Source of the DNA: Streptomyces sp. NBC_00285
GTDB taxonomy: Bacteria > Actinomycetota > Actinomycetes > Streptomycetales > Streptomycetaceae
Length of the DNA: 64,000 bases
Assembly: GCF_036174265.1 (NCBI RefSeq)
Contig: NZ_CP108055.1
Span: 9,300,001-9,364,000, forward strand
Direction: 5' to 3'
Each line of letters opens with the position of its first letter. The first letter of the stretch is position 1. Positions 7,811 through 59,421 of this stretch are shown here, one piece after another. The notes under the pieces are model-generated. The model was not told the origin of the DNA and did no database searches. It was given only the letters and a program-made list of their open reading frames with translations. The translations under genes and the position numbers were made by a program.

Positions 7811-7848
7811 ATCTATCAGCTAACATAGAATAATTAGATAGATGAATA
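7811..7848. promoter_or_regulatory. AT-rich operator island upstream of an acyl-CoA dehydrogenase gene
   Basis: An AT-rich island contains the inverted repeat ATCTATC (7811-7817) and GATAGAT (7837-7843). The reverse strand over 7831-7848 reads TATTCATCTATCTAATTA and matches the motif repeated through the cluster. It ends about 25 bases before the start codon, as an operator overlapping the promoter would. Confidence 0.6.
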
Positions 7849-7872
7849 GCCTAGTGGTGGCGAGGAGCGGTC

Positions 7873-9024
7873 GTGGACTTCGGGCTGAGTGACGAGCAGG
7901 ACCTGTTGCGCGCGACGGCACGGCAGTTCGTGGCCGACGTGTGTCCGGCGGAGAAGGCCAAACAGTGGGACGAGGACGGGGTCGTACCGCCCGAGCTGTT
8001 CCGGGGCATGGCCCAGCTGGGCTGGTTCTCCCTCCCGTTCGGTGAGGACGAGGGCGGTGACGGCGGCGGACCGCTCGAACTCATCCTGATCGCCGAGGAA
8101 CTGGGGCGGGCCAGTTTCGACGTCGCCATGTGCTACATCGGCGTGCTCATCCCCGGGATCACGGTGTTCCGGTGGGGCACCGAGGCACAGCGCGACTTCA
8201 TCCGCCGCGAGGTGATGACCGGGCGCCACCGGCTCGCCGTCGGCCTCAGCGAGCCGGACAGCGGGTCCGACGCCGCCGCGCTGCGCACCACCGCCGAGGA
8301 CCACGGGGACCACTTCCTCGTGCGCGGTCAGAAGGCGTGGTGCACGGGCGGCGGTCTGCCCGACACGACCATCGCCACATATGTGCGCACCGGGCCCCGC
8401 GAGCCCAAGCACGGAGGCATCAGTCTGCTGCTCGTCGACCCGACGACGGAGGGCGTCGAGGTGCGCCGGACGCCGACGCTGGCCCGGCACATCCTCGGCA
8501 CCAACGAGGTCTTCTTCAACAACGCCCTGGTCCCCAAGGAGAACCTGGTCGGCCCACGCGACGAGGGCTGGAAGGTCATGCTCTCCAACATCGAACTGGA
8601 GAAGGTCATCATCAGCGGCGGGTACCTCGGGGCCGCCCAGTCCACCCTGGACGAGATGCTGGAGTACGCCCGCACCCGGCACGCCTTCGGCCGCCCCATC
8701 GGCAACTTCCAGGCGCTCGCCCACGCCATGGCCGACCTCCAGACCGAGATCGACTCCGCCCGGCTGCTCGCCTACCGTGCCGCCTGGCTGCTCGCCCAGG
8801 GCAAGCCGTGCACGCGGGAGGGGTCGATGGCCAAGCTGAAGGGCTCGGAGACCTATGTGGCGGCCGCCCGGCTCGGGATGCAGGTCCTCGCGGGACACGG
8901 CTTCTCCACGGAGAGCGTGATGAGCTTCCGGTACCGGGAGTCGATCGTGGCGACCATCTCCGGGGGCACCAGCCAGATCCAGCGCAACGGCATCGCCCGC
9001 AGCATGGGGCTGCGCTCCTACTGA
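7873..9024 (+). CDS. Acyl-CoA dehydrogenase
   Basis: A 383-residue FAD enzyme that introduces a 2,3-double bond into an acyl-CoA. N-terminal helical domain, FAD-contacting motif LSEPDSGSD, beta domain ending ILGTNEVFF, and C-terminal domain with RHAFGRPIGNFQ and SGGTSQIQRN. The usual Glu before GT is Gly here. A Glu in the SNIELEK helix sits where long-chain and isovaleryl enzymes keep their base, so it is likely active. GTG start 7873 with GAGGAG upstream. A single-gene unit whose stop overlaps the convergent thioesterase gene by 7 bases. Confidence 0.92.
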   Translation: MDFGLSDEQDLLRATARQFVADVCPAEKAKQWDEDGVVPPELFRGMAQLGWFSLPFGEDEGGDGGGPLELILIAEELGRASFDVAMCYIGVLIPGITVFRWGTEAQRDFIRREVMTGRHRLAVGLSEPDSGSDAAALRTTAEDHGDHFLVRGQKAWCTGGGLPDTTIATYVRTGPREPKHGGISLLLVDPTTEGVEVRRTPTLARHILGTNEVFFNNALVPKENLVGPRDEGWKVMLSNIELEKVIISGGYLGAAQSTLDEMLEYARTRHAFGRPIGNFQALAHAMADLQTEIDSARLLAYRAAWLLAQGKPCTREGSMAKLKGSETYVAAARLGMQVLAGHGFSTESVMSFRYRESIVATISGGTSQIQRNGIARSMGLRSY

Positions 9025-9542
9025 CCCTCCGCGTCGGCGCGTTGACCGGCGAGCCACTCCTCGTGCCGGGCGAAGTGGCCCCGGTCGCGGGTCACCCAGA
9101 TCCCCGACGCGCGGGCCAGCACGGCGCGCGTCGGCAGCAGCACCATCTCGCCCGCGATGTACCAGCGGGACCCCTCGCGCCGCTCGACCCGGGCCCGGAC
9201 CTCCAGCGGATGTTCCACCGGCACCGGCTTGACGAAGCTCACGGTCAGTTCGGCCGTCACGCTCAACACCCGGTGCAGCAGCGGAAGATGGCCGAGGCAG
9301 TCGTCCAGCACGGCCGCCGTCCAGCCGCCGTGCGCCACCTCGGGCCCACCCTCCTGGTCCCGCGGGCAGGTCAGTTCGAAGCACGCGGTGCCGTCGTCGT
9401 CGAGCCGCTCGTGCCGCACGCCGAGCCGGCAGGAACCGGCGACTCGGCACGCGCCGCACAGCGCCACCCCGCCCGCTGTGCGGGGCGGCTCCTGGAAGTC
9501 CGCCCCGGCCCATGGCCCGGACCCGGGCACCGTGCTCGACAT
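9018..9542 (-). CDS. PaaI-like hot-dog thioesterase with N-terminal cysteine cluster
   Basis: A 174-residue hot-dog protein; the helix segment EVAHGGWTAAVLDD is the PaaI-type active region, so it probably hydrolyses acyl-CoA thioesters. Unusually, a Cys cluster (CGACRVAGSC, near residues 29-38) precedes the fold and may bind metal. It is the last gene of a four-gene unit with the luciferase-like, GNAT-synthetase and amidohydrolase genes. The ATG at 9542 is chosen for its AGGAG; an ATG at 9566 would overlap the preceding stop. Confidence 0.83.
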   Translation of the reverse strand: MSSTVPGSGPWAGADFQEPPRTAGGVALCGACRVAGSCRLGVRHERLDDDGTACFELTCPRDQEGGPEVAHGGWTAAVLDDCLGHLPLLHRVLSVTAELTVSFVKPVPVEHPLEVRARVERREGSRWYIAGEMVLLPTRAVLARASGIWVTRDRGHFARHEEWLAGQRADAEGQ

Positions 9543-9558
9543 GCTGGAACTCCTCGTG

Positions 9559-10533
9559 TCAGACATCGGCAAGCAGCGGACGCAGCTTCCCGGCGATGAG
9601 CTGGACCTGGCGGGCGACCATCTCCTCGGGCATCCCGGCCAGCGACGCCCACAGGAACACACCCTCCACCGGCAGACCCGCCACGTACTCCTTGATGGCC
9701 TCGGCCGTGTCCTGCGGTGTGCCGTACAGGAACTGGCCGACGCCGGTGGCGTTCAGGCCCGTCCCCCGCCACTTGTCGGGATCGATGGGGCGGGGGAGGG
9801 GCTGATCGGTGCCCTCGACCATATAGCGGCGGTAGCTGTCCCACTGGTACGCCAGATGCTTGCGCACCTCCGGCCAGTCGCCGTCGGGGTCCTCGGTGAC
9901 GAACGTGGTGAACGAGCCCTGCATCCGGGCCGTCGACACGTCGTGCCCGCTCTCGGCGAGCCCGTCCCGGTACGGCGTCAGCAGCGCCGGGTTGAGCGAG
10001 AGCAGCCCGGTGCCGAGCCGGCCGGCCCGCCGGGCGCCCTGCGGGCCCTGGTAGCCGAGCCAGATCGGCAGCGGGTCCTGGACCGGGCCGGGGGTGACCA
10101 GGGACTCGGCCCACAGGCCGCGGATCTCCCGTACCCGCTGATCGGTCGTGGTGTAGCGCTTGGCGAGGTCGGCGCCGAAGAGCCGGTACTCGGGCACGCG
10201 ATAGCCGGTGCCGAGGCCGAGGTCGAGTCGGCCGTCGCTGATGATGTCCACGATCGCGGCCTGTTCGGCGAGTTCGGGGGCCGCGTGGAGCGGGGCCGGG
10301 ACGACCGCCGTGCCCAGGCGCACCCGGCGGGTGCGGGCGGCTGCCGCGGCCGCCAGGGTGAGCGGCTGGGGAAGGTACCCGTCCTCGAAACCGTGGTGTT
10401 CGGAGAACCAGACCGAGTCCAGGCCCAGCCGGTCCGCCTCCTCGCACATCTCCAGGGTGAATCCGTACAGGCGCGACCAACTCTGCCGCCATGGCGGCGG
10501 GTTGCGCATGTCGAAATAGATGCCCACCTTCAT
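9559..10533 (-). CDS. LLM-class (luciferase-like) flavin/F420-dependent oxidoreductase
   Basis: A 324-residue TIM-barrel oxidoreductase of the bacterial luciferase-like group. It begins MKVGIYFDMRN and has the family segments GLDSVWFSEHH, RTRRVRLGTAVV, and DIISDGRLDLGLGTGY. Such enzymes are FMN monooxygenases or F420-dependent reductases/dehydrogenases; the cofactor is not resolved by sequence. It overlaps the upstream GNAT-synthetase stop by 4 bases (coupled translation). A role in oxidising or reducing a pathway acyl-CoA or ketone is inferred from position only. Confidence 0.88.
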   Translation of the reverse strand: MKVGIYFDMRNPPPWRQSWSRLYGFTLEMCEEADRLGLDSVWFSEHHGFEDGYLPQPLTLAAAAAARTRRVRLGTAVVPAPLHAAPELAEQAAIVDIISDGRLDLGLGTGYRVPEYRLFGADLAKRYTTTDQRVREIRGLWAESLVTPGPVQDPLPIWLGYQGPQGARRAGRLGTGLLSLNPALLTPYRDGLAESGHDVSTARMQGSFTTFVTEDPDGDWPEVRKHLAYQWDSYRRYMVEGTDQPLPRPIDPDKWRGTGLNATGVGQFLYGTPQDTAEAIKEYVAGLPVEGVFLWASLAGMPEEMVARQVQLIAGKLRPLLADV

Positions 10534-12959
10534 GAGACTCCTCCTCCTGTTCCATCCGCCGTGAGCCGGATCGTCGCGTGTGCGACGGCCACGCCGGCCC
10601 CGGCGACTGCCATGTCGTTCCCGGCCGGCAGCAGTCGTACCGGCCGCAGTTCCAGTGCCTCGATCTCGGGAAGGTCCTCGACCATCGCCGAGAGCCGCAG
10701 GACGGTCTCCTCCAGAGCCGCGAACTCCACACCCCGGCTCTCCAGCAGCGGCGTCGCCCGCAGCGAGCGGACCATCTCCCGCGCGTCGCGGTCGGTGAGC
10801 GGGGTGACCCGGTACGCGACGTCCGCCATGAGGTCGGCGTAGTCCCCGGTCAGGCCGAAGGCGACCACCGGCCCGAACACCGGGTCGGCGCTGACGGAGA
10901 GGAACGCGTCCGGGCCGGGGCCCGGCTCCGTGTCCCGTACGGCGATTCCGTACGCGGCGAGCAACTCGGCGGCGATCCGGGCGGAAACCGGGCCGGGAGA
11001 GCGTCCGGCCAGCAGTGAGCGGGCGCGCTCGGCGTCGATTCCCGGGAGGTCGGGCACGACACCCGCAGGGGTGCTGCGCCAGGCCTGGTAGGCCGCGGCC
11101 TGTCCGAGCGAGCCTGCCGCCGCCTCCGGGAACGTGTACGTCGGCACCACCAGGTCGCCCCGGTGCAGGAGGTCGGCGACGCCCGCGCCGCCCAGGAAGC
11201 TGGCCACCACCGGCTTCTCGGGCCGGGCCGCGGCCGCGTCGAGGATCGCCGACGCCACCTCGTCGGCCTTGTCCGCCAGCGGCGGCATGAACAGGACGAT
11301 GGCCGCGTCGATGCCGTCGTCGGCCAGGACCGCGTCCAGTGCCTGCCGGTAGTGGGCGGCGGTGGCCGTCGGGGTCAGGTCGATCGGGTTGGAGACCTCC
11401 GCCCGGGGTGCGAGCGCCGAACCCAGTGCCCGGCGGGTGTGCTCGCCGAGTGCGGGTACGCGCAGTCCGCTCGCCGCGCAGGCCCCGACCGTCAGGGCCG
11501 CGGGACCCCCCGCGTTGGTGATCACGGCGACCCGGTCGCCGGGCGGGGGAGGCTGGTGGGCCAGCAGCAGAGCCACGTCGAACAGTTCCTGCAGGCTGCG
11601 GGTACGGATCACCCCTGACTGGGCGAACAGCGAACTCACCGCCGAGTCGGCGGGGCCCGGGTGGACCGCGACGATCGGCTTGCGCGGCGCGATCCGGCGG
11701 GCGACGCGGGCGAACCGGCGTGGATTGCCGAAGGTCTCGACGTGCAGCAGGATCACGGAGGTTCCCGGGTCCTCCTCCCACCACTGCAGGAGGTCGTTGG
11801 TGGACACGTCCACGGCGTGCCCCACGGACACGAAGCCGGAGAAGCCGAGCCGCAGCCGCCGGGCGTAGTCGACCACGGCGAGGCCGAGCGGCCCGGACTG
11901 ACTGGACATGGCGACCCGGCCGGGCGTCGGCAGGGCGGGCGAGAAGGTCGCCGCCAGCCGCGCCTGGGGGGTCGTGTTGACGACGCCCATGCAGTTCGGG
12001 CCCACCAGCCGCATGCCGGAGGCGCGCGCGAAGCGGGCCAGCTCCAGCTCGGTCGCCCGGCCGTCGGCCCCGGTCTCCCCGAAGCCGGTGGAGACCACGA
12101 CCACCGCCTTGACCCCGGCCTCGGCACACTCGCGCACGGCCTCGGGCACGGACTCGGCCCGCACCGCCACGAGCGCCAGGTCCGGCGGCTCGGGAAGGTC
12201 CCGGACGTTTCCATACGCCCGCAGTCCCGCGATCCGGCCGGCCCGCGGGTTGACCGGGAAGATGCTGCCGCCGAAGCCGCCCCGCAGCAGGTTGGCCACG
12301 ATCTCGTGCCCGATCGTCAGCGGGCCGCGGTTGGCGCCGATCACGGCGACCGACCGGGGTTCGAGCAGGGGCCGCAGGGAGCGCCGTACCGCCGTGTGCT
12401 CGCGGCGCTCGGCCCGCGCGACGGCCAGGGTCTGCGGATCGACGGCGATCTCGAAGTGGATGATCTGGCCCGGCGGACCGCTCTCGACGCGGTAGCCGGA
12501 ACCGAGGAACACGTTGATCATCCGGGTGTTGTCGGCGAGGACGTCGGCCTCCAGCACCCGGATGCCCCGGGCGCGCGCGGCGGCGGCGATGTGCTCGAGC
12601 AGCAGCCGGCCGAACCCCTCGCTCTGGTGGTCGTCCCGGATGGTGAACGTGACCTCGGCGTGCTCCGGTTCGTCGGGGTCGCGGACGTAGCGGACCACGC
12701 CCGCGATCTCCTCGCCGGCCAGGGCGACGAGCGCCAGCTCGTTGAGGTAGTCCACGTGTGCGCCGCGTCGGATGACGTCGTCGCGCAGCCGGACCACCGG
12801 GCCGAGGGAGCGGTAGGCCAGGGTGGCTCGCGACAGGCTGCCCACGAAGGCGACCAGGCGGTCGGCGTCCTCGGGCCGGATGGGCCTGAGGAAGGTCGAC
12901 CGCCCGGTCCTGACGAGCCCGGGCCGCTCCAGGTCCTCGGGGTAGGGAGGAGTGGTCAC
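10530..12959 (-). CDS. GNAT-acyl-CoA synthetase (NDP-forming) fusion with shortened ATP-grasp domain
   Basis: An 809-residue fusion. Residues about 17-165 are a GNAT acetyltransferase (acetyl-CoA loop QSEGFGRLL). From about 195 come a CoA-binding Rossmann domain (PRSVAVIGANRG) and flavodoxin-like ligase domains (SSQSGPLG, SVGHAVDVSTNDLL). Related proteins (Pat type) acetylate and silence acyl-CoA synthetases. Odd feature: between AAYGIAV (near residue 669) and DPVFGPVV (near 692) only about 23 residues remain where relatives have roughly 100 more, including the ATP-binding and HK segments. Synthetase activity is therefore doubtful, while the acetyltransferase looks intact. GTG start 12959. 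Confidence 0.87.
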   Translation of the reverse strand: MTTPPYPEDLERPGLVRTGRSTFLRPIRPEDADRLVAFVGSLSRATLAYRSLGPVVRLRDDVIRRGAHVDYLNELALVALAGEEIAGVVRYVRDPDEPEHAEVTFTIRDDHQSEGFGRLLLEHIAAAARARGIRVLEADVLADNTRMINVFLGSGYRVESGPPGQIIHFEIAVDPQTLAVARAERREHTAVRRSLRPLLEPRSVAVIGANRGPLTIGHEIVANLLRGGFGGSIFPVNPRAGRIAGLRAYGNVRDLPEPPDLALVAVRAESVPEAVRECAEAGVKAVVVVSTGFGETGADGRATELELARFARASGMRLVGPNCMGVVNTTPQARLAATFSPALPTPGRVAMSSQSGPLGLAVVDYARRLRLGFSGFVSVGHAVDVSTNDLLQWWEEDPGTSVILLHVETFGNPRRFARVARRIAPRKPIVAVHPGPADSAVSSLFAQSGVIRTRSLQELFDVALLLAHQPPPPGDRVAVITNAGGPAALTVGACAASGLRVPALGEHTRRALGSALAPRAEVSNPIDLTPTATAAHYRQALDAVLADDGIDAAIVLFMPPLADKADEVASAILDAAAARPEKPVVASFLGGAGVADLLHRGDLVVPTYTFPEAAAGSLGQAAAYQAWRSTPAGVVPDLPGIDAERARSLLAGRSPGPVSARIAAELLAAYGIAVRDTEPGPGPDAFLSVSADPVFGPVVAFGLTGDYADLMADVAYRVTPLTDRDAREMVRSLRATPLLESRGVEFAALEETVLRLSAMVEDLPEIEALELRPVRLLPAGNDMAVAGAGVAVAHATIRLTADGTGGGVS

Positions 12960-12975
12960 GGTGTTCCGCCGCCGC

Positions 12976-14055
12976 TCAGACGGCCGCCTCCTGGGGAGTC
13001 TGTTCGGGCAGCTCGAACAGTTCGTTGAAGGTGCCGCGCGTGACGCGCTCGCGGATGTCCTCGGGCACGCCGTCGAACAGGTCGTGCAGCGTGGACTGGG
13101 TGTGGCCGTACGTGCCTTCCAGGTGGGGGTAGTCGTCGCCCCACATCACATTGCGGTAGCCGGTCGACTCGACGATCTCCACCGAGCTCTTGTCGTGCTG
13201 GAAGGACGCGTACACCTGCTGGCGGATGATCTCGCTGGGCAGCCGGCTCAGCTTGGGCCGGACGAACATGCCGTGCTGGCGGTACGCCTCGTCCATCCGG
13301 TCGCCGATGGCCGGCACCCAGCCCGCGCCGCCCTCCGCGATCAGGATCTTCAGGTCCGGGTGGCGGTCCAGGGCACCGCCCGCGACCATGTGGGAGACCA
13401 CACGCATGCCCGGGTAGGTCGTCTCCATGTAGTTGACGACCGCGCCGCCGGGTCCGCGGAAGACGACGTTCTCGCCGCCGGTGCCGATGTGGAAGGCGAG
13501 CACCACGCCCGCCCGCTCGGCGGCGGTCCACAGCGGCTCCCAGCGGTCGAGGGCGTACTCCTCGCCCGCCCGGGTCGAACACGGCAGGAAGACCGCCTGG
13601 AAGCCCATCTCGGCGGCCCGCTCCACCTCGGCGACCGCGTCGTCGATGTCGGCGGTCGAGACGCAGGCGGTGGTGATGACCCGCTTGTTCTTGCTGAGGA
13701 TCTCGTCGTACGCCCAGTCGTTCCACGCCCGGACGGTCTCGCGGGCGAGCTCCCGGTCGGTGATCGACACGAGCCAGAACCCCATGGAGGGGAAGGCCAG
13801 CTGGCTCCACACACCCTCCTGGTCGAGGTCCTTGAGCCGGACCTTCAGATCCCAGGCACCCGGCGGGCGCATGGCGTCCATGAAGTCGCCGAGCTGGCGG
13901 TCGATGCGCTCGCCGTCGATGTAGAGCATCTCGTACTTCTCGCCGCGCTCACTGCGCGGAGCCCGGGCGCCGAGCCGGGCCGGCAGCCTCTCGGTCCACA
14001 CGTCGGCGGGCTCCATCACGTGGGAGTCCCCCGAGTTGACCCAGATCTTCGACAT
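12976..14055 (-). CDS. Amidohydrolase family protein (COG2159, ACMSD-like TIM barrel)
   Basis: A 359-residue metal-dependent TIM barrel. It starts SKIWVNSGDSHVMEP, where family members have DxH or DSH metal ligands. It continues with AFHIGTGG, a conserved VSHMVAGGALDRHPDLK segment and the C-terminal MWGDDYPH. The family includes decarboxylases and C-C or C-N hydrolases such as ACMSD; members are frequent in steroid and alicyclic acid clusters. First gene of the leftward unit; ATG 14055 has GAAGGAG upstream. A second paralogue is at 54452-55633. Confidence 0.88.
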   Translation of the reverse strand: MSKIWVNSGDSHVMEPADVWTERLPARLGARAPRSERGEKYEMLYIDGERIDRQLGDFMDAMRPPGAWDLKVRLKDLDQEGVWSQLAFPSMGFWLVSITDRELARETVRAWNDWAYDEILSKNKRVITTACVSTADIDDAVAEVERAAEMGFQAVFLPCSTRAGEEYALDRWEPLWTAAERAGVVLAFHIGTGGENVVFRGPGGAVVNYMETTYPGMRVVSHMVAGGALDRHPDLKILIAEGGAGWVPAIGDRMDEAYRQHGMFVRPKLSRLPSEIIRQQVYASFQHDKSSVEIVESTGYRNVMWGDDYPHLEGTYGHTQSTLHDLFDGVPEDIRERVTRGTFNELFELPEQTPQEAAV

Positions 14056-14076
14056 GACGCTCCTTCGGGTCAATGG

Positions 14077-14212
14077 ATGTAATCAGTAAGCGATTTTAGT
14101 TGTATGAGCGGCCGAAGGGAAGGCCGTACGGGCGGAAGATCGGCCCGGGAGGGTCGGCGGCAGGGGCGGACTTGCCTTAATCCGTAGAATTGGTTGACTG
14201 ATTGCGCTGATA
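14077..14212. promoter_or_regulatory. Divergent promoter region with two AT-rich stretches
   Basis: Between the amidohydrolase and the PaaK-like gene lie AT-rich stretches at 14077-14106 (including AATC/GATT arms and TAGTTGTA at 14097-14104, also found at 36786-36793) and at 14172-14212. The spacing suggests one per divergent gene. The match to the cluster motif is partial. Confidence 0.4.
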
Positions 14213-14249
14213 GCTGGAAGATCTGGGCACTGAGCCGCGAGGAGGCGCC

Positions 14250-16291: not shown

Positions 16292-16305
16292 GCGAGGAGT
16301 CGAGG

Positions 16306-17217: not shown

Positions 17218-17218
17218 G

Positions 17219-18840: not shown

Positions 18841-18859
18841 AAGCACAGGGGACCCCGCG

Positions 18860-49558: not shown

Positions 49559-49592
49559 ATCGGCCGTCAGGCCGAGACCGGAGGCCGTGCTG

Positions 49593-50958: not shown

Positions 50959-50980
50959 CCGCGCACCGACCGAGGAGCTC

Positions 50981-51439: not shown

Positions 51440-51858
51440 GCCTGAGCGCGGACGACATCAAGGTCGGCGAGACCCGCGAGAGCATCCTGGTCGACGACCT
51501 GAAGCGGACCCGGATCGTGCAGTACGCCGGTGCCTCCGGAGACTTCAACCCGCTGCACACGGACGAGAAGTTCGCCGTCGAGGCCGCGGGATACCCCGGG
51601 GTGTTCGCCCACGGCATGCTCACGATGGGCATGACCGGCCGGGTCCTGACCGACTGGGTCGGAACCGAGTCGCTGCTGCGCTACGGAGTGCGCTTCAAGG
51701 CCCAGGTCCGGCCCGGCGACACCCTCACGGCCACGGCCACCGTCGACTCGGTCGAGGACACACCGACGGGCCCGGTCGCCCACTTCCTGGTGCGCACGGT
51801 CAACCAGGACGGCGTCGAGGTGGTCACCGGTACCGCGGCGGCCCGCCTGGAGCAGTGA
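51436..51858 (+). CDS. MaoC-like dehydratase, catalytic subunit
   Basis: A 140-residue MaoC protein with the full hydratase-2 motif ASGDFNPLHTDEKFA and GVFAHGMLTMGM. It should hydrate a 2-enoyl-CoA to the (3R)-hydroxyacyl-CoA together with the preceding subunit, matching the (3R)-type SDRs at 16306 and 23013. Overlaps the ligase start by 4 bases (GTGA). Confidence 0.92.
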   Translation: MSLSADDIKVGETRESILVDDLKRTRIVQYAGASGDFNPLHTDEKFAVEAAGYPGVFAHGMLTMGMTGRVLTDWVGTESLLRYGVRFKAQVRPGDTLTATATVDSVEDTPTGPVAHFLVRTVNQDGVEVVTGTAAARLEQ

Positions 51859-53327
51859 CGCCGGTGGGCGGCGCAGGGGAGGCCGAAGAGGCGGCCGGCT
51901 GGACCGCCATGGTGAGCCGCGCCTACGACCACGCCCGGCCCGCCGCCCGGTTCGGCGACCTGACCTGGACCGGCCGCGAACTGCTCGACCGGGCCGGCGG
52001 CGCCGCCCACTGGCTGGACTCGCTCGGCCTCGAACCCGGCGCGCCCGTCCCGGCGTTGGTCGCCACCTCCGCCGACGCCCTCGCGCTGGTGATCGGTGGC
52101 GCGGGGTCCGGCCATCCGCTCGCGCCGCTCGGTGTCCGGATGACCGCGCACGAGATCGCCACCGTGGTGAAGGCGACGGACTGTCAGACCCTGCTGGCAC
52201 AGAGCGAGTTCGCCGAACTCGGCAGGCAGGTCGCCGCCCTCTCGGGACGGCGACTGCACATCGTCCCGGAACTGCGCCCGGTCCCGCGGGAGTTGACGGC
52301 CGCACCGGGCGACCTCGCCGCCGTCCTGCACACCTCCGGCACGACCGGCCTGCCCAAACCCGTCCCCATGACCCAAGGGCGCCTGGCCGCACGCGCCCGC
52401 GTCAACGGCAAGCTGTGCGCGCTCGACCCCGACAGTTTCTACGGCGGCAGCGCGCCCTTCCACCACATCGCGGGCCTCGGCAACATCGCCGTCGCCCTCG
52501 CCGCCGGCGCTCTGATCACCGGGCTGCCCCGCTTCACCGTCGAGGGCTGGGCCCTGCTGCGGGAGCTCGGCACCACCCACACCAGCATGGTCCCGGCGAT
52601 GCTGGAGACCCTGCTGGCCGCGGGCGAGGCACGCCACGAGACCCTGCGGACCCTCCAGTACGGGGGAGCGCCCGTCCGCCCCGGCACCCTGCGGCGGACG
52701 TACGAGGCGATGCCCGGCGTCCGCATGCTCAACATGTTCGGGCAGACCGAGGGCTCACCGATCAGCGTGCTCACCCCCGAGGGCCACCGTGAAGCGGTCG
52801 CGGGGCGCACCGAACTGCTGCGCTCGGTGGGGAGGCCCGCCCCCGGCGTCGAGGTCAGGGTGGCCGGCGCCGGGCCCGACGGCGTCGGCGAGATCCACGC
52901 CCGCGCCGACCACTTCTTCCGGATCGACACCGAGGGCTGGCTGCACAGCGGCGACCTCGGCCGGATCGCGGAGGACGGCTACCTCTACCTCCTCGGCAGG
53001 CGCACCGACATGATCATCCGCGGCGGCGAGAACGTCCATCCGCTGGAGGTCGAGACCGTCCTGACCGCGCATCCCGGCGTGGCGGACGCCGCGGTGACGG
53101 GCGTGCCCGACGAGCGGCTCGGCCAGACCGTCGTCGCCTTCGTCGTGCCGGCCGATCCCGGCGCCCCTCCGGACCCGGCGGCGCTCAGCAGCCATACCCG
53201 CGCCCGGCTGTCCGGGTTCAAGGTTCCCGTCCGCTGGTGGTTCGTGGACGACCTGCCGCGCAACGCCAACGGCAAGGTCGTCCGCCGCCTGCTGCGGGAA
53301 CCGCACGAAGGAGGAACCAGTGCCTGA
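51855..53327 (+). CDS. AMP-forming acyl-CoA synthetase (complete motifs)
   Basis: A 490-residue ligase with the full set: P-loop LHTSGTTGLPKPVPM, NMFGQTEGSP, HSGDLGRIAEDG, hinge LGRRTDMIIRGGENVHPLEVE, and the catalytic Lys in NANGKVVRR. It is the best candidate in the window for ATP-driven substrate activation. GTG 51855 overlaps the previous stop. Its own stop overlaps the beta-lactamase-fold gene by 8 bases. Confidence 0.9.
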   Translation: MTPVGGAGEAEEAAGWTAMVSRAYDHARPAARFGDLTWTGRELLDRAGGAAHWLDSLGLEPGAPVPALVATSADALALVIGGAGSGHPLAPLGVRMTAHEIATVVKATDCQTLLAQSEFAELGRQVAALSGRRLHIVPELRPVPRELTAAPGDLAAVLHTSGTTGLPKPVPMTQGRLAARARVNGKLCALDPDSFYGGSAPFHHIAGLGNIAVALAAGALITGLPRFTVEGWALLRELGTTHTSMVPAMLETLLAAGEARHETLRTLQYGGAPVRPGTLRRTYEAMPGVRMLNMFGQTEGSPISVLTPEGHREAVAGRTELLRSVGRPAPGVEVRVAGAGPDGVGEIHARADHFFRIDTEGWLHSGDLGRIAEDGYLYLLGRRTDMIIRGGENVHPLEVETVLTAHPGVADAAVTGVPDERLGQTVVAFVVPADPGAPPDPAALSSHTRARLSGFKVPVRWWFVDDLPRNANGKVVRRLLREPHEGGTSA

Positions 53328-54417
53328 CCATGTCGACCCGCTCCGCCTCGACACCCTTCTGGGCAGGATCCGCCGGGAGGTCGAGCACGGCCCCCTGCCG
53401 TCCGCGCAGGTCGCCGTCGCCCACCAAGGACGGCTGGTGGCCGTCGAGACCTACGGCGACGCCGGCCCCGGCACCCGGTACGTCCTGCAGTCCGTCGGAC
53501 GGTCCATCGTCGCGGGCGTGGTGTGGAAGCTGATCGGCGACGGGCTCCTGGACGTGGGCGAGCAAGTCGCCGCGATCATCCCGGAGTTCGCGCCCAACGG
53601 GAAGGAGGCGGTGACGGTCGAGCAGGTCCTCACGCACACCGCGGGCTTCCCCTTCGCGCCCCTCGGACACCCGAAGATGCTCGACCGCGAGCAGCGGCTC
53701 GCCGCCTTCGGGCGCTGGCGTCTGGACTCCCCGCCGGGCAGCCGCTTCCAGTTCCACCTCACCTCGGCGGCCTGGTTGATCGCCGAGATCGTCGAGCGGC
53801 GCACGGGCCTGGCCTTCGCCGACTTTCTGCGCGAGCAGGTCGTGGAGCCACTGGGCCTGTCGTCGATCGAGCTGGGGGTCCCGGTGGACCGGCAGCCGGG
53901 CAGCGTCGCCCCGATGCTCGCCACCGACCGCACCGGCGACGACCAGGAACCCGACCCCTGGGGGCCCTGGTACCTGTCCGACCCGAAGGTCCTGGCGGCC
54001 GGAGAGCCGAGCCATGCCCTGGTCGCCACCGCCGCCGACGTCGCGCTCTACTTCCAGGCGCTGGTCCACTCCGGACTGTGGAAGCCGGAGGCGGTGGCCG
54101 AGGGCACCCGGATCAGGCTGACCGATCACCCGTACGGGGAGCAGATCTACGGGGGCGGCGGCAGTCGCCGTACCAGCATGGGACTGTTCGTGACGGTGGC
54201 GGGCCCCGACGCGGGGAGCAACCTTCCGTCGACGGGCTCGCAGGCGCTCTTCGGCAGCGCGGGGGCGGCCTACCAACTGGGCTTCATGGACCCGGAGTCG
54301 GGCCTGTCCTTCGCCTGTCTGAGCAACGGCTATCCGCTCGCCGGCTACGACAACTCGCCCCGCGGCACCGCACTGCTCACCGACATCGCGAACCTGGCGG
54401 CGGGCCTGGTCGGTTAG
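53320..54417 (+). CDS. Beta-lactamase-fold (class C/EstB) protein with altered active site
   Basis: A 365-residue member of the serine beta-lactamase/esterase family; the fold is shown by VTVEQVLTHTAGFPF and the ending SAGAAYQLGFMDPESGLSFACLSNG. The SxxK motif reads Ser58-Val-Gly-Arg61, and the YxN motif reads His146-Leu-Thr148, so two key catalytic residues are changed. It has no signal peptide and is probably cytoplasmic. An esterase or lactonase acting on a pathway ester, or a non-catalytic role, are both possible. GTG 53320; AAGGAGG upstream. Confidence 0.85.
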   Translation: MPDHVDPLRLDTLLGRIRREVEHGPLPSAQVAVAHQGRLVAVETYGDAGPGTRYVLQSVGRSIVAGVVWKLIGDGLLDVGEQVAAIIPEFAPNGKEAVTVEQVLTHTAGFPFAPLGHPKMLDREQRLAAFGRWRLDSPPGSRFQFHLTSAAWLIAEIVERRTGLAFADFLREQVVEPLGLSSIELGVPVDRQPGSVAPMLATDRTGDDQEPDPWGPWYLSDPKVLAAGEPSHALVATAADVALYFQALVHSGLWKPEAVAEGTRIRLTDHPYGEQIYGGGGSRRTSMGLFVTVAGPDAGSNLPSTGSQALFGSAGAAYQLGFMDPESGLSFACLSNGYPLAGYDNSPRGTALLTDIANLAAGLVG

Positions 54418-54423
54418 ACCGGG

Positions 54424-54439
54424 CCCGCCGCCAGGCGGG
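54424..54439. terminator. Short hairpin between convergent genes
   Basis: CCCGCC (54424-54429) and GGCGGG (54434-54439) with a GCCA loop lie seven bases after the stop of the beta-lactamase-fold gene and before the convergent amidohydrolase stop. Confidence 0.45.
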
Positions 54440-54451
54440 GTCGTACGACGC

Positions 54452-55633
54452 TCAGCGGCTGATCAGCTGCTGAGCGTTGTTGTACATGATGTCGTCCTGC
54501 GCGGACTCGTCGAGCTCCGCGATGAGCTTGCGGAAGTCGGCCGGCTGCGCCAGGCCCTCCGCGTGCGGGAAGTCGGAGCCCATGACGATGGACTCGTGGT
54601 AGCCGAGGCGCTTGACCACACCCACGATGTCGTCCTCGGGGTAGGGCACCACTCGGACGTGCTTGCGGAAGATCTGGCTCGGCCGCTCGTCCAACTGCCC
54701 GCCGATCCAGGGGCCGTTGCGGCCCATGCCCCGGCTCTTGTCCATGTGGCGCACGAAGTGCGGAACCCACTCGGAGCCGAACTCCGAGACCAGGACGTTG
54801 ATGTCGGGGAAGCGCCCGAAGAGGTTGTCGAAGATCAGCGCTGACAGCGTCTCCTCGACGGGGCGCTGGCCGTAGGTGTTCTGCCACTGCCAGGCCGACA
54901 TCCGGAAGTGGATGGGGTGCGGGTCGAAACCCCACGAGGGTGCCACCTGCGAGTTGTAGTAGAACTCGCTGATGTGGTAGCAGACGCTGGCCTTGGCCTC
55001 GTTGACCAGCTTCCAGAACGGGTCGAAGTACGGGTCGCCCGGCGAGCGGCCGTACATCGGTCCGGTGGGCAGCAGGATGAAGCGGGCGCCCTGGTTCAGG
55101 ACGTACTCCAGCTCCTTGACCGCGCTGGGCAGATCGCGCAGCGACAGCAGGGCCGGGGCGTAGATGCGGCCCTGGTGGTTGAAGCCCCAGACCTCGTTCA
55201 TGTAGCGGTTGAACGAGTGGTAGTTGGCGTAGAGCGGCTCCACGCCCTTCACGTACTCCTCCGCGACCAGGGCCCAGCCGCCCGGGTAGATGATCGACTG
55301 GTCGAGGCCCTGCTCGTCCATGACCCGCAGCCGGGCGTCGCGGTTCTGGTACGACTCGTGCATCGGCTCGAACTGGTAGGTCTCCTCCGGGTTGCCCGAG
55401 GCCATCGCCTTGAGCATCTCCTTCAGCGACCCAGGGCGGTAGACCTGCCCGAACTCCGGCTCCAGACAGACCACGATCCGGTCGCCGGCGAGGATCACCT
55501 CCCGCCCGTCCGGCAGTGTCACCGGTGCGACCGCGGCGCCGAGGAACTCCTTGGGGAGATAGCGGGTGAAAGAGTCCCGCTCCTCGTACATGTGCTGGTC
55601 GCAGTCGAAGATGGGCTTGCGCTGTTCGGCCAT
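54452..55633 (-). CDS. Amidohydrolase family protein (COG2159)
   Basis: A 393-residue TIM-barrel amidohydrolase: KPIFDCDQHMYEERDSFTRY with the metal-ligand region DQH, CYHISEFYYNS, and MGSDFPHAEGL near the C-terminus. Distantly related to 12976-14055; together they could act as decarboxylases or C-C hydrolases. A single-gene unit whose leader contains the 18-base site shared with the 44501-44525 operator. Confidence 0.88.
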   Translation of the reverse strand: MAEQRKPIFDCDQHMYEERDSFTRYLPKEFLGAAVAPVTLPDGREVILAGDRIVVCLEPEFGQVYRPGSLKEMLKAMASGNPEETYQFEPMHESYQNRDARLRVMDEQGLDQSIIYPGGWALVAEEYVKGVEPLYANYHSFNRYMNEVWGFNHQGRIYAPALLSLRDLPSAVKELEYVLNQGARFILLPTGPMYGRSPGDPYFDPFWKLVNEAKASVCYHISEFYYNSQVAPSWGFDPHPIHFRMSAWQWQNTYGQRPVEETLSALIFDNLFGRFPDINVLVSEFGSEWVPHFVRHMDKSRGMGRNGPWIGGQLDERPSQIFRKHVRVVPYPEDDIVGVVKRLGYHESIVMGSDFPHAEGLAQPADFRKLIAELDESAQDDIMYNNAQQLISR

Positions 55634-55673
55634 GGCCGTCGCCTCCGGACCCCGTCGCTAATCGGTACGACTC

Positions 55674-55691
55674 CTATAATTATCTAACTGT
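55674..55691. promoter_or_regulatory. Operator upstream of amidohydrolase gene
   Basis: CTATAATTATCTAACTGT, identical over 18 bases to 44505-44522. It lies about 41 bases upstream of the leftward amidohydrolase start. Confidence 0.75.
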
Positions 55692-55759
55692 TTCTCTGAG
55701 GCAAGGGGGTAGCCGAAAGCGGGGTGGGGCGGGCGCGGGGGAGCGGGGCCGGGGCGGGG

Positions 55760-56563
55760 TCAGTCGAGGAGTTCGAGCACCGTCTTGGGTCCGGCGGAGT
55801 TCACCACGTCGTCGGCGCTGGAGATGTGCCGCTGCCAGAGCTTCTCGGCCTCGTCCGCCTTGCCGGACTCGATCAGGCCGACCATCCGCACGTGCGCCCG
55901 GTGCCCCTTGAGCGCCTGTGTCCTCTGGGCCTCGGCGTCCACGGCGGCCGCTGTGTACGAGGCGTTGGCCCGGTCGATGATGTTGCGGACCATGCTGCAC
56001 AGCAGGATCAGGGTCTGGTTGCCGGTGAGCTCGACCAGCAGGGCGTGGAAGGTGTCCTGTGCTTCGACCAGGGCGAGCGGGTCGTCCAGGACCGCCTTCT
56101 CGGCCGCCACCGCGTCCCGCAGCCGCTTGATGTCGTCCGCGGTGTGCTTGGTGGCGAGCTGCCGGGCGCAGGGTGGCTCGATGAGGGCGGCCGCGCGATA
56201 GAGGTCGCCCAGGGTGGCCCCGCGGTACTCGAGGATCAGGCCGGCGAAGCGGGCGGCGACGTCGGCGTCGGGCGCGCTCACCCGGGCGCCGCCGTGGGCG
56301 CCGCGGCGGACCGTGATCAGTGATTCCGACTCCAGTACGCGGAACGCCTCGCGCAGTGTCGGCCGGGAGATGCCGAACTGCTCCATCAGGCCCGACTCCG
56401 GCGGCAGCGCGTCGTCCGGCATGAGTTCGCCCCGCACGATCTGGCGGCGCAGGTGTGCGGCGACCAGTTCGGCGGTCTTCGGTACTCGCACCTGGCGTCC
56501 GACGCGAGTGCGGGCGGGGACGGGCACGGTCGCCGTTTCGCGTGCGCGGGCTGCCTCGGCCAC
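55760..56563 (-). CDS. GntR family regulator, FadR/FCD subfamily (second of two)
   Basis: A 267-residue regulator with a winged helix (LRRQIVRGELMPDDALPPE, SRPTLREAFRVLE) and an FCD domain (DTFHALLVEL, GHRAHVRMVGL, WQRHIS). The recognition helix SRPTLREAFRVLESESL is identical to that of the regulator at 36857, so both may bind the same sites. GTG 56563 has GAGGAG 6 bases upstream; an ATG at 56584 has none. The motif copy at 56577-56592 is directly upstream, suggesting autoregulation. Confidence 0.93.
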   Translation of the reverse strand: MAEAARARETATVPVPARTRVGRQVRVPKTAELVAAHLRRQIVRGELMPDDALPPESGLMEQFGISRPTLREAFRVLESESLITVRRGAHGGARVSAPDADVAARFAGLILEYRGATLGDLYRAAALIEPPCARQLATKHTADDIKRLRDAVAAEKAVLDDPLALVEAQDTFHALLVELTGNQTLILLCSMVRNIIDRANASYTAAAVDAEAQRTQALKGHRAHVRMVGLIESGKADEAEKLWQRHISSADDVVNSAGPKTVLELLD

Positions 56564-56576
56564 GGTGGGCTCCTCA

Positions 56577-56702
56577 TATAGCAAAATGAATCGTCTTAGT
56601 GCATCGAGGGTACCAGGTCAAGCGTTGGTTGATCTTCCCTCGGAAGCGGCGGATCTGGTGCCCCGAGCGGTCTTTGGTATATAGATGATTCATCTAGCTA
56701 TA
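56577..56702. promoter_or_regulatory. Paired operators between GntR gene and divergent crotonase gene
   Basis: GATTCATTTTGCTATA on the reverse strand (56592-56577) and GATTCATCTAGCTATA on the forward strand (56687-56702) match in 14 of 16 bases and each points toward one divergent gene. The second contains the palindrome TAGATGA-T-TCATCTA (56682-56696). Confidence 0.7.
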
Positions 56703-56731
56703 ACCCGAACAGGCCCGTGGGAGTGACCTCG

Positions 56732-57550
56732 ATGACCGAGACTTCGACCCCGGTGATCCTCACCGAACTCACCGACGACGGGGTCATGATCCTCACCCTG
56801 AACCGGCCGGAGCGGCACAACGCCTGGACGCTGGAGATGGAGCTCCTCTACAACGAGCTGTTCGACCGGGCGGAGGCGGACCCGCGGGTCCGGGCCGTGC
56901 TGCTCACCGGCGCCGGGCGCAGTTTCTGCCCCGGCATGGACATGAGCGTGCTGGACGGGGCGTCGTCCGGCGCCCGCCCGTGGCCCACCGACCGGCTGCC
57001 CCCGCGCACCCGACCGATGACGTTCCCCAAGCCGGTCGTGGCGGCCGTGAACGGCGCCTGCGCGGGCATCGGGTTCAACCAGGCCCTGATGTGCGACGTC
57101 CGGTTCGCCGTGCCGCACGCCAAGTTCGCCGCCGCCTTCAGCGCGCGCGGCCTGGTCGCCGAGGACGGTGTGTCCTGGCTCCTGCCGCGGCTGGTCGGCC
57201 ACGGCAACGCCGCCGACCTGCTGCTGTCCTCGCGCCGCTTCACCGGGACGGAGGCCCACGCGATGGGGCTGGTCAACCGTCTCGTCGAGCCGGACCAGCT
57301 CCTTGCGGAGGCCCTCGCCTACGCGACCGAACTGGCCCGCTCGGCCAGCCCGTACGCGATGTCCCTCATCAAACGGCAGCTCGTCGACGATCAGGCGCGG
57401 TCCTTCACGGAGAGCCGCGACAACGCGGCCGCGCTGCTGGCCGTGGCCAAGCGGGCCCCGGACTACCGGGAGGGCGTGCTCAGCTTCATCGAGCGCCGGC
57501 AGCCGGAGTTCGCGGGGCTGGGGGAGACGGTGCCGGAGGTGACGTCATGA
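56732..57550 (+). CDS. Enoyl-CoA hydratase/isomerase family protein
   Basis: A 272-residue crotonase closely related to the one at 50107: TLNRPERHNAWTLEMELLY, FCPGMDMSVLDG, CAGIGFNQALMCDVRFA, ARGLVAEDGVSWLLPR. The first classical Glu is Gln; Glu-Asp remains in the VAEDG turn. ATG 56732 (GGGAG upstream) is preferred to a GTG at 56717. Followed with a 4-base overlap by a DUF2889 gene. Confidence 0.9.
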   Translation: MTETSTPVILTELTDDGVMILTLNRPERHNAWTLEMELLYNELFDRAEADPRVRAVLLTGAGRSFCPGMDMSVLDGASSGARPWPTDRLPPRTRPMTFPKPVVAAVNGACAGIGFNQALMCDVRFAVPHAKFAAAFSARGLVAEDGVSWLLPRLVGHGNAADLLLSSRRFTGTEAHAMGLVNRLVEPDQLLAEALAYATELARSASPYAMSLIKRQLVDDQARSFTESRDNAAALLAVAKRAPDYREGVLSFIERRQPEFAGLGETVPEVTS

Positions 57551-58125
57551 CGCGCTCCGCCCTTCCTCTGCACCGTCGTACGATCACCGTCACCGCGTAC
57601 GAGGAGGACGGCGCCGAGATCCGGGTCGAGGCGGAGCTGTGCGACGAACGCCCGTGGGAGCAGCCGCCGGGCGGAGTCGTCCACCGGATGGTCCTGGCGG
57701 TGCGGGTACGCCTCGCCGACATGGTCGTCGTGGCCGCCGACGCGCAGATGCGTGACTTCCCGCACGCCGAGTGCCCGCTGATCGCCCCGGCCTTCGAGGG
57801 TCTGGTGGGGCTGGGTGTCGCCGCCGGGTACAACCGGGCCGTCCAGGAGCGCTTCCGGGGTGTCTCGGGCTGCTCCCACCTCTACGAACTGAGCCGCGCG
57901 CTCGGCCCGGCGGTGGTGCAGGCGGCCATGTCCGTCAACGCGCGCCGGCGGGCGGCGGGTGATGCGGCCGAGGACCCGCGTGCCTCGGCCGCGGTGATGA
58001 ACAGCTGCCACATCTGGGCACCGGACGGTGTGGGCCTGCGCAAACTCGACGCGGGCTGGCGCCCCGGAACCGGTCCGCGTCCGGTCCCGGAGCTCGGCAC
58101 CTTCGAGCGCCCTACGGGGCCGTGA
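57547..58125 (+). CDS. DUF2889 family protein
   Basis: A 192-residue protein with the DUF2889 landmarks: LPLHRRTITVTAYEEDG start, MRDFPHAECPLIAP, CSHLYELSRALGPAVVQAA, and NSCHIWAPDG. Conserved His and Cys residues suggest a small enzyme, but the function is unknown to me. Members often sit in aromatic or acyl-CoA clusters. Coupled to the crotonase gene upstream. Its 3' end overlaps the convergent acyl-CoA dehydrogenase gene by 14 bases. Confidence 0.83.
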   Translation: MTRSALPLHRRTITVTAYEEDGAEIRVEAELCDERPWEQPPGGVVHRMVLAVRVRLADMVVVAADAQMRDFPHAECPLIAPAFEGLVGLGVAAGYNRAVQERFRGVSGCSHLYELSRALGPAVVQAAMSVNARRRAAGDAAEDPRASAAVMNSCHIWAPDGVGLRKLDAGWRPGTGPRPVPELGTFERPTGP

Positions 58126-59338
58126 TCCGCGGCTCGCGCGGCAGCCCCAGAACCTTCTCCGCGAGGATGTTCCGCTGCACCTGCGAGGTGCCCGCGTAGA
58201 TCGTGCCCGACAGGGCGATCAGATACGTCGTCGACCAGGACGCCGAGGAGTTCGCGGCGCCGGGGTCGTCGGTGCGGTAGGTGCGCAAGGGCGGCCGGCC
58301 GACCGGCACCTGGCCGTGCAGGCCCATGATGTCCATCGCCAGATCGGTGACCTCGGTGTGGTACTCGCTCCAGTACAGCTTGGCGATCGACGTCTCGGGG
58401 CCGGGCTCGGCGCCCTTGAGCCAGCCGGTGAGGATCCGGTAGCCGAGACAGCGCATGATCTCGACCTTGGACCAGCACCAGGCGATCCGCTGCCGTACGA
58501 CGGGGTCCTGGTCCTTCCCGTGGAGCCGGGCCAGTTCCACGAGCCGTTCCACCTCGGCCCGGAACAGGATCGGGTTGGTGGCCGCCTCCTCGCCGCGCTC
58601 GACGCCCAGCAGGCTCTGGGCCACCGTCCAGCCGTTGTCGACGCCGCCGACGACGAGATCGGCGCGGGTGCGGGCGCCGGTGAGGAACACCTCGTTGAAG
58701 TGCAGCTGTCCGCTCATCATGCGGAACGGCCGTACCTCGACGCCGGGCTGGTCGAGCGGGACCAGGAGGAAGGAGATGCCCCGGTGCTTGGACGCCTCCC
58801 GGTCCGTGCGGGCCAGGACGAAGATCCAGTCGCTGTGATGGGCGCCGGAGGTCCACACCTTCTGGCCGTCGATCACCCACTCCTCGCCGTCCCGCACCGC
58901 GCGGGTCTTCAGGGAGGCCAGATCGGAACCGGCGTCCGGCTCCGAGTACCCCTGGCACCAGGTGTCCTCGCCGCTGAGGATGCGGGGCAGGAAGTGGCTC
59001 TTCTGCTCCTCCGTGCCCCAGCGCAGCAGCGTGTTCGCCAACATCTTCACGCCGAAGGTGTCCTGCGGCAGCCCGAACGGAACGCCGGCCAGGGCGAGTT
59101 CCTCCATCAGGACGACCTGGTGGAGCTTGGACAGGCCGCGGCCGCCGTACTGCTTCGGCCAGGTGAGGGAGAGATAGCCGTGCTCGACGAGTCGGCCGCG
59201 CCAGTCGCGGGCGAAGGCCCAGGCCGAGTCCTCGTCCAGGGCGCCGATGCCCTTCCAGTCCGCCGGCAGCGCCTCGGCCAGGAACGCCTTGACCTCGGCA
59301 CGGAACGTCCCGGTCTCCGGGGGATAGCTGATGTCCAC
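58112..59338 (-). CDS. Acyl-CoA dehydrogenase, large-type
   Basis: A 408-residue large-type dehydrogenase: YSEPDAGSDLASLKTRAV, QKVWTSGAHHSDW, LHFNEVFLTGA, and YAGTSQVQRNILAEKVLGLPREP. The Glu before GT is Ala. It has no small-type neighbour; the orphan at 38663 could be its partner, or it may act alone. GTG start 59338 with GAGGAG upstream. Single-gene unit divergent from the SDR-thiolase unit. Confidence 0.92.
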   Translation of the reverse strand: MDISYPPETGTFRAEVKAFLAEALPADWKGIGALDEDSAWAFARDWRGRLVEHGYLSLTWPKQYGGRGLSKLHQVVLMEELALAGVPFGLPQDTFGVKMLANTLLRWGTEEQKSHFLPRILSGEDTWCQGYSEPDAGSDLASLKTRAVRDGEEWVIDGQKVWTSGAHHSDWIFVLARTDREASKHRGISFLLVPLDQPGVEVRPFRMMSGQLHFNEVFLTGARTRADLVVGGVDNGWTVAQSLLGVERGEEAATNPILFRAEVERLVELARLHGKDQDPVVRQRIAWCWSKVEIMRCLGYRILTGWLKGAEPGPETSIAKLYWSEYHTEVTDLAMDIMGLHGQVPVGRPPLRTYRTDDPGAANSSASWSTTYLIALSGTIYAGTSQVQRNILAEKVLGLPREPRITAP

Positions 59339-59402
59339 CTGTGTTCGCTCCTCGTCCGACGCCCCGCCCGCACAGCTGGTCGCTGTATTGATTGTTTCAG
59401 CA

Positions 59403-59421
59403 TAATAGGTTATCTATTTAA
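59403..59421. promoter_or_regulatory. Palindromic operator, divergent promoter
   Basis: AATAG-GTTAT-CTATT (59404-59418) inside AATAGGTTATCTATTTAA (59404-59421), 18 bases identical to the 27953-27971 site. It lies 33 bases before the SDR start and 65 bases from the divergent dehydrogenase start. Confidence 0.75.

Follow-up and report, generated by a model that had tools for sequence, protein, structure and literature searches.

The locus analyzed here raises the question whether the AT-rich elements scattered over the promoters of a large acyl-CoA catabolic gene cluster in Streptomyces sp. NBC_00285 represent one common operator and, if so, which proteins would read it. The window, i.e., the whole stretch of DNA analyzed, comprises 64,000 nucleotides (G000:C1:9300001-9364000) of a genome of 10.31 Mb on two contigs; seven-digit positions below refer to the contig, all others to the window. 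The original prediction, made from the letters alone, had claimed a related AT-rich element at 13 coordinates, a regulon of some 19 units and an identical recognition helix in two GntR/FCD regulators encoded within it. Based on the results described below, we consider it highly probable that the cluster forms a local catabolic regulon of ~20 units plus the promoter of an importer, with one palindromic operator that is read by both regulators, here termed GntR1 and GntR2. The genes concerned are:

7873..64000, acyl-CoA catabolic genes of the regulon (acyl-CoA dehydrogenase (ACAD), enoyl-CoA hydratase (ECH), SDR, CoA-transferase, thiolase and ChsH2-like, MaoC, ligases), continuing past the window to a branched-chain-type ABC importer
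36857..37639, + strand, GntR1, FCD-GntR regulator (Pfam GntR and FCD), proposed operator reader
55760..56563, - strand, GntR2, FCD-GntR regulator (Pfam GntR and FCD), proposed second reader

The cluster codes for nine acyl-CoA dehydrogenases, six enoyl-CoA hydratases, thiolases together with ChsH2-like proteins, MaoC and CoA-transferases, a gene set that would fit the breakdown of an alicyclic, branched or side-chain acid. Solved relatives of the cluster proteins include the acyl-CoA dehydrogenases 6wy8 and 4x28, the lipid-transfer thiolase 6ok1 and, weakly, DitZ; presumably, these relatives point to steroid side-chain or terpenoid-like acids.

A palindrome is shared by the promoters of the cluster

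Genes were called with a codon model trained on the window (the calls are not curated), and motifs were searched by expectation maximization (EM), with at most one site per intergenic region on both strands, in the 19 non-convergent intergenic regions between 7.7 and 59.5 kb. As a control, the same regions were shuffled within blocks of 20 nt, by which AT islands are preserved. The real sets received more random starts than the shuffled ones (80 versus 25 in the 18-bp window test, 80 versus 20 for the distant loci described below, 50 versus 20 in the 16-bp and AT-rich tests), which introduces a slight bias toward the real set.

The best 16-bp palindrome resulting from this de novo discovery was AATTAGTTAACTAATT, with the consensus AATTAGT-TA-ACTAATT when written by halves. 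Its log-likelihood (LL) of 110.1 compares to 61.1 +/- 4.0 for the shuffles (z 12.2), and the 18-bp palindromic form reached an LL of 114.4 versus a mean of 65.7 (sd 2.9, max 69.8) in 15 block shuffles. A de novo search had been proposed originally as a check of the element, and its outcome bears the element out, as the palindrome lies far above the block shuffles. Widths 16 and 18 outscored 15, 17 and 19 in the window and also in the set of distant loci (width 14 did not outscore 15 in the window); the preference for the even widths 16 and 18 indicates a 2-nt gap separating GT from AC. A free, non-palindromic 16-mer reached an LL of 124.7 with twice the parameters, and a penalty of the Bayesian information criterion type (61.6 versus 30.8) favours the palindrome. 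The consensus written earlier for the element, ATTCATCTAnCTATA, occurs with up to two mismatches at four places in 10.3 Mb, all four of them in the window (reversed control, 1 forward and 2 reverse). It covers one half of the palindrome only and was therefore dropped for the better model, the palindrome AATTAGTTAACTAATT.

The motif was cross-validated in two ways. In a leave-one-out analysis, in which near-identical partner regions were also removed, 11 of the 19 regions beat all 122 background regions, and regions 26675-26775 and 41588-41746 were beaten by one and two of these, respectively; the remaining six regions were background-like, all of them gaps between codirectional genes. When training was split, each half of the cluster recovered sites in the other half. 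A covariance model built from the site sequences only was also tried and rejected as too weak, with 0 matches genome-wide and 7 in the window at E up to 1.

At the cut-off applied in most counts, a score of at least 13 bits with the palindromic position weight matrix (PWM), the window contains 16 matches; two of these share 12 bases and are taken as one, giving 15 distinct sites. All 20 units tested have a site within 300 bp of their start, 19 of them at 13 bits or more and the GH1-family gene at 11.9 bits, and the original estimate of some 19 units thus proved about right. Divergent units share operator sites, and 16 of the 20 units have the centre of their best site 20-74 bp ahead of the start codon. 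The sites are the following, where fractions give the relatives that keep the site:

7832..7847, operator before the ACAD gene 7873-9024(+); 23.2 bits, kept in 1/1 relative
14081..14096, operator in the divergent promoter of amidohydrolase(-) and PaaK-like ligase(+); 17.1 bits, a similar 21.4-bit site before the gene in genome G011
14188..14203, second operator in the same divergent promoter of amidohydrolase(-) and PaaK-like ligase(+); 20.7 bits, identical 16-mer in G011
26708..26723, operator in the divergent promoter of SDR(-) and ACAD(+); 15.4 bits, SDR 23/23, ACAD 20/20
27955..27970, operator ahead of the unit whose first gene is aldehyde dehydrogenase 28012-29502(+); 22.0 bits, 27/27, almost unchanged as a block across 26 aligned rows
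32753..32768, operator 181 bp upstream of the conservon-like operon 32942-36771(+); 17.6 bits, NIT kinase relatives 7/7
36775..36790, operator upstream of GntR1; 22.9 bits, present in 13/32
40663..40678, operator in the divergent promoter of ECH(-) and ECH(+); 22.2 bits, 28/28 and 27/27
41710..41725, weak operator before the GH1-family gene 41747-43147(+); 11.9 bits, at least 13 bits in 25/28 relatives
44509..44524, operator in the divergent promoter of ECH(-) and ACAD(+); 23.2 bits, 25/25 and 26/26
49476..49491, operator overlapped by the called CoA-transferase gene (5' end) and located upstream of the 4HBT unit as well; 24.1 bits, intergenic in G011, 4HBT relatives 5/6
49541..49556, operator in the divergent promoter of CoA-transferase(-) and the 4HBT unit(+); 19.8 bits, CoA-transferase relatives 5/5
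55678..55693, operator before amidohydrolase 54452-55633(-); 24.6 bits, 4/4
56576..56591, operator before GntR2; 17.5 bits, 5/5
56688..56703, operator before ECH 56732-57550(+); 15.9 bits, counterparts of 15.9 to 18.2 bits in G011, G084, G144, G138 and G156
59404..59419, operator in the divergent promoter of ACAD(-) and SDR(+); 22.0 bits, 4/4 on both sides

Eleven of the 13 coordinates named originally fall on sites of at least 13 bits (7832, 26708, 27955, 36775, 40663, 44509, 49541, 55678, 56576, 56688 and 59404), but two do not. At 32739 the score of 11.4 bits is below the cut-off, and the better site is 32753-32768; at 14097 no match of at least 8 bits was listed, with the sites 14081-14096 and 14188-14203 lying alongside. 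The sites at 14188 and 49476 and the weak but conserved one at 41710 are additions. The true start of the CoA-transferase gene, whose called form includes the site at 49476, is probably further in. In two cases, near-identical promoter stretches occur before different genes, 27939-27971 together with 59388-59420 and 44505-44524 together with 55674-55693, as if duplicated within the cluster.

The operator is nearly confined to the cluster

Statements on the genome as a whole rest on pattern searches over all 10.31 Mb and on 27 stretches (540 kb) serving as background. Sites of at least 13 bits outside the cluster numbered 0 in a background of 240 kb and 1 in that of 540 kb. Among promoter regions, 12/19 in the window reached 13 bits as opposed to 1/257 elsewhere (Fisher p 2e-15), a comparison with some circularity, since the window itself served to train the PWM. 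Thus, as the original prediction required, the motif is not equally frequent elsewhere. Two degenerate patterns were derived from the window sites, each of which catches 9/15 of them. AWWNVKNTANMBNWWT without mismatch matched at 12 places in the genome, nine in the window, one at 9367803-9367818 and two elsewhere (reversed control, 4). With one mismatch allowed, AWWNAGNTANCTNWWT also matched at 12 places, nine in the window and three elsewhere (control, 6), and two of these three are the same sequence near both contig ends.

The site G000:C1:9367803-9367818 scores 26.0 bits and is located 3.8 kb past the window, between two importer genes, one (-) for a branched-chain-type ABC permease fused to an ATPase and one (+) for a substrate-binding protein; behind the latter gene follow an ABC ATPase and a LuxC-type acyl-CoA reductase. 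In G011, a comparable site of 27.5 bits lies between genes of like size to the importer pair. Within the 40 kb before and the 40 kb after the window, no further site of at least 10 bits was found besides 9367803-9367818.

The sites are conserved at orthologous promoters

Conservation was determined for the 20 units in up to 32 relatives, in which the gene had to show at least 70% identity and the upstream 300 bp a site of at least 13 bits; L032 and L048 were excluded as duplicates of G011 and G138 contigs. The named relatives of GntR1 are mostly Streptomyces. Units farther from GntR1 were covered by 1 to 6 relatives, and sites were kept in all but one case (4HBT, 5/6). Six control genes, chosen as lacking a site, had one in 0/20, 0/5, 0/5, 0/1, 0/0 and 2/29 relatives. 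The stretches flanking the G011 locus (L014, L015, L108) contained no sites.

More distant loci carry multiple sites as well: seven in L055 (a Streptosporangiaceae metagenome-assembled genome (MAG)), five in L058 (Actinomadura), six in L059 (a Nocardiopsis MAG) and eight in L056 (an unusual Streptomyces). There, the gene order is scrambled, yet the sites adjoin relatives of the window ECH, ACAD, SDR and GntR genes. A de novo search on L055, L056, L058, L016 and L017 (five loci from four genomes; window data, convergent regions and regions of at least 700 nt were all excluded) yielded AAt.AGtTAaCT.aTT with an LL of 116.6, compared to 61.1 +/- 4.3 (max 66.3) in eight shuffles. Single loci also gave the motif, namely L055 (68.4; shuffle max 57.1) and L059 (54.2; shuffle max 48.9). 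Taken together, the cross-validated motif, its near-confinement to the cluster and its conservation at orthologous promoters strongly support a cluster-wide regulon.

GntR1 and GntR2 are the likely readers of the operator

Both proteins consist of a GntR winged-helix head and an FCD domain (they pass the PF00392 and PF07729 cut-offs) and thus belong to the FadR/FCD regulators. They share 54% identity overall, 79% in the head and 47% in the FCD part. The recognition helix SRPTLREAF is indeed identical in the two, as noted originally, but this is weak evidence alone because the helix is identical in all 25 aligned relatives as well. By sequence, the nearest solved structure to GntR1 is NanR (6on4, E 2.8e-20); its scores for three NCBIfam families stay below the curated cut-offs (NanR 126.3/260, PdhR 76.5/330, LldR 65/311 bits), so that it does not qualify as an orthologue of PdhR, LldR or NanR by this measure. 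In a phylogenetic tree, GntR2 forms a clade of its own (7 rows, 100/99) and a third clade (100/99) is made up of the second regulators from L055 and L059, while the deeper branching order has a support of 33/3 and two rows are long. The clades therefore indicate that the regulator doubling is seen twice, with partners that are not shown to be orthologous. The two regulator genes lie next to each other in both L055 and L059, each preceded by a site. The GntR1 homologue of the Nocardiopsis MAG (L059:3292-4013) matches in two reading frames and is broken or misassembled.

The assignment of the operator to GntR1 and GntR2 is supported indirectly, namely by their being the only regulators seen, by the motif form of the FadR subfamily and by the motif beside the GntR gene in the genomes G107 and G014. 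Among the called genes from 7.8 to 62 kb, no DNA-binding regulator other than these two was identified by Pfam. With respect to form, AATTAGTTAACTAATT is an AT-rich palindrome with GT and AC 2-3 nt apart, as is typical of FadR-type operators, and would be owned by GntR1 and GntR2. According to the available part of PMC4494728, the site of the subfamily is TKGT/ACMA with 3 nt between the halves, or 2 nt in several groups (GntR, HpxS, HypR, MdcY, PrpR, UxuR), and an Arg residue in position 28 of the head goes with a strong preference for G at the K position of TKGT. In the operator described here, A makes up 66% and G 20% of the PWM at the K position, so that it does not fall under TKGT/ACMA, a consensus that is widespread in the subfamily without being universal. 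Position 28, as located by our own alignment, is occupied by Thr, Ser, Ala or Asn in all 25 aligned sequences and never by Arg; the prevailing A at the K position fits this missing Arg.

Across genomes, a GntR homologue at E 1e-55 or better was found in 8/150 Streptomyces genomes. Pattern counts in these eight were 12, 14, 9, 21, 4, 11, 16 and 14, compared to 3.03 on average for the remaining 142 genomes (Mann-Whitney p 5e-6, the genomes not being independent). In G107, where GntR2 has an orthologue (85%) and GntR1 has none at the cut-off, sites flank the orthologue, with one centred 29 bp ahead of the called gene start and the other 51 bp past the end, and in G014 three pattern sites lie within 0.5 kb of its 47% homologue. 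Class-wide, a homologue at 1e-45 was present in 49/394 genomes. This search provided 29 new loci, three of them Streptomyces GntR1 loci and 26 more distant, one of which is without upstream DNA. Among the distant ones, L118, L120, L124 and L138 have an upstream site of at least 13 bits (shuffle p <=0.03).

As a possible counter-example, G161 was considered, which has 15 pattern matches and no GntR at the cut-off. It was rejected, as 13/15 are one identical 16-mer of a dispersed repeat. This sequence, ATTCCGTTAGCGTTAT, is found at 13 places in the 6.0 Mb Streptomyces genome G161 and represents an unrelated dispersed repeat.

Several observations weigh against the regulon as read by these two proteins. 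The upstream site of GntR1 itself is present in just 13/32 relatives; in many relatives coding sequence occupies the position of the GntR1 promoter, and GntR1 is therefore probably transcribed with the conservon there (the promoter alignment was unusable, as most rows are without the island). G107 has only four pattern matches genome-wide, one of them at its GntR gene. Of the further Streptomyces GntR1 loci, one of three has an upstream site (L111, but not L110 and L112), and 21 of 25 more distant homologue loci have none of at least 13 bits. L056, L058 and L016 plus L017, taken singly, do not yield the motif de novo, and L061 (Ilumatobacteraceae, 45-48%) has two marginal sites only. Finally, the Gly at position 59 of the head, for which a preference for G at the same base is likewise stated (PMC4494728, available part), is retained, so that protein and operator fit only in part. 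According to the locus counts, the pairing of protein and motif is therefore firm around GntR1 and GntR2 and patchy beyond.

Alternative explanations

The AT-richness of the sites and their distance to the start codons in 16/20 units would also suit a -10 region of promoters for a particular sigma factor; in addition, the sites at 27955 and 59404 overlap the position where a -10 would lie, 17 nt after a TTGATT. However, a sigma-70 type -10 is directional and at a fixed distance, whereas the halves of the motif are symmetric (9.2 and 8.5 bits in seven sites oriented to transcription) and the best sites are found at -20 to -181 from the start codons. As the motif is also nearly confined to one cluster and accompanies a GntR gene, and as Pfam revealed no sigma gene within the cluster, we regard a sigma factor signal as very improbable. 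Practically no weight is left for shared AT-richness only, e.g., as the target of an AT-binding nucleoid protein without any specific operator. It is true that the window promoter regions are richer in AT islands than the background, with 13/19 reaching 0.63, the 95th percentile of 122 background regions, but shuffling in 20-nt blocks abolishes the motif although the AT islands are preserved, by which this explanation is contradicted. Moreover, the 19 AT-richest of 216 background regions gave an LL of 76.9 versus 66.3 +/- 3.3 (z 3.2) with a different consensus, and six random draws from the 60 AT-richest background regions gave z 0.9 to 2.5, all far from the value obtained for the window.

If the palindrome is accepted as real, it might still be read by a regulator encoded elsewhere, with the GntR genes being mere targets. 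The 19/32 relatives in which GntR1 lacks a site of its own and the many more distant homologues without one are in line with this idea, which we nevertheless consider improbable given the lack of any other DNA-binding regulator seen from 7.8 to 62 kb, the company of motif and GntR gene in G107 and G014, and the GT-N2-AC form, which matches several FadR-subfamily groups in the available part of PMC4494728. Somewhat more room, although it appears unlikely, is given to only one of the two proteins binding the operator while the other has a different target. Their FCD parts have diverged to 47% identity, and G107 keeps GntR2 and sites without a GntR1 at the cut-off, but the nearly identical heads with the same recognition helix, the sites upstream of both GntR genes in the window, and L056 and L058, which have a GntR1-like protein and sites and no second regulator in the 20 kb covered, argue for binding by GntR1 as well as GntR2.

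Proposed mechanism and relation to known systems

GntR1 and GntR2 would bind the operator as dimers by means of their nearly identical DNA-binding heads. Most likely, these dimers repress the genes for uptake, activation, beta-oxidation and the regulators themselves, and an acid or acyl-CoA of the pathway would then bind to the FCD domain and relieve repression. FCD regulators are mostly ligand-released repressors; for this reason, and because the best sites lie 20-74 bp before the start codons in 16/20 units and, at 27955 and 59404, would cover the putative -10, repression appears the most likely sign of control. It is conceivable, and put forward tentatively, that the sister regulators constitute a two-input gate in which interchangeable heads and different sensors act on one set of ~20 operators, so that competing homodimers or heterodimers would answer two pathway compounds.

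As far as the available text of PMC4494728 shows, the system resembles the FadR/FCD subfamily in its AT-rich palindrome with central GT/AC, the gap of 2 nt, the GntR head plus FCD domain and sites near own or neighbouring genes, and departs from the consensus TKGT-N3-ACMA by having mostly TAGT, no Arg28 and two regulators inside one regulon. The box of Escherichia coli PdhR, a distant relative, is given as AATTGGTnnnACCAATT in the accessible part of PMC7660256 and shares the outer AATT and the half-site form AATTrGT, but has a 3-nt gap instead of 2 and GG instead of AG. E. coli NanR is like GntR1 in providing the nearest solved structure and the best NCBIfam match, though below the cut-off; it binds direct repeats according to the available parts of PMC4494728 and PMC8012715, unlike the palindrome described here, and has Arg at the position where GntR1 has Thr. 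HypR of Streptomyces coelicolor is, in the accessible text of PMC6608401, likewise a FadR-subfamily repressor with several target promoters including its own gene, but its motif CTNTGC(A/C)ATGTCAC is unrelated and its pathway is that of hydroxyproline. The original prediction knew of no published description of the motif, and searches among the open-licence PMC papers likewise found none, although one of the FadR-type groups of PMC4494728 may be this family. Among the papers listed as containing motif strings, PMC6986058 and PMC11596240 concern, as far as their available text goes, other mycobacterial regulators, and the rest other subjects. The results therefore strongly support a new regulon of a known regulator kind.

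By this, an uncharacterised catabolic cluster that a small number of Streptomyces species share with further actinomycete families becomes a defined regulon. Its operator is sufficiently precise for additional members to be located by pattern and shows the variant TAGT instead of TKGT, which fits the missing specificity residue. Two sensors that would act on one operator set and a conservon promoter that would belong to the regulon may be unexpected for a specialist, and the system is suited to asking why two paralogous sensors share one set of operators.

Further features of the locus

The conservon-like operon 32942-36771 within the regulon encodes an NIT histidine-kinase-like protein, a Roadblock protein and an ATP/GTP-binding protein; its open reading frame 35798-36190 gave no Pfam match. 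In the Actinomadura locus L058, relatives of the conservon kinase (31%) and GTPase (60%) are located near GntR1 and sites. Two fusions were observed: the protein encoded by 61515-62957 combines an HMG-CoA-synthase-like domain with a ChsH2-type zinc ribbon plus OB fold, and in that of 10530-12959 a GNAT acetyltransferase domain is fused to an ADP-forming acyl-CoA ligase-like protein.

Another locus, G000:C1:8543926-8547384 (L082), contains a small group of PWM matches with 13.9, 16.2, 12.9 and 10.2 bits. Three of them lie within 90 bp and show ATCCG-like parts, and the group may be the operator of a different regulator. The 16-mer ATTACTATACCGGTAT at G000:C1:8561166-8561181 occurs once each in at least a dozen Streptomyces genomes among the places listed and is apparently a conserved element unrelated to the acyl-CoA regulon. 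Upstream of the cluster, an AT-rich island at 6587-6616 contains the palindrome CATAGCTACTATG 56 nt before the MarR-family gene 6103-6531(-), of which it is perhaps a separate, autoregulatory operator.

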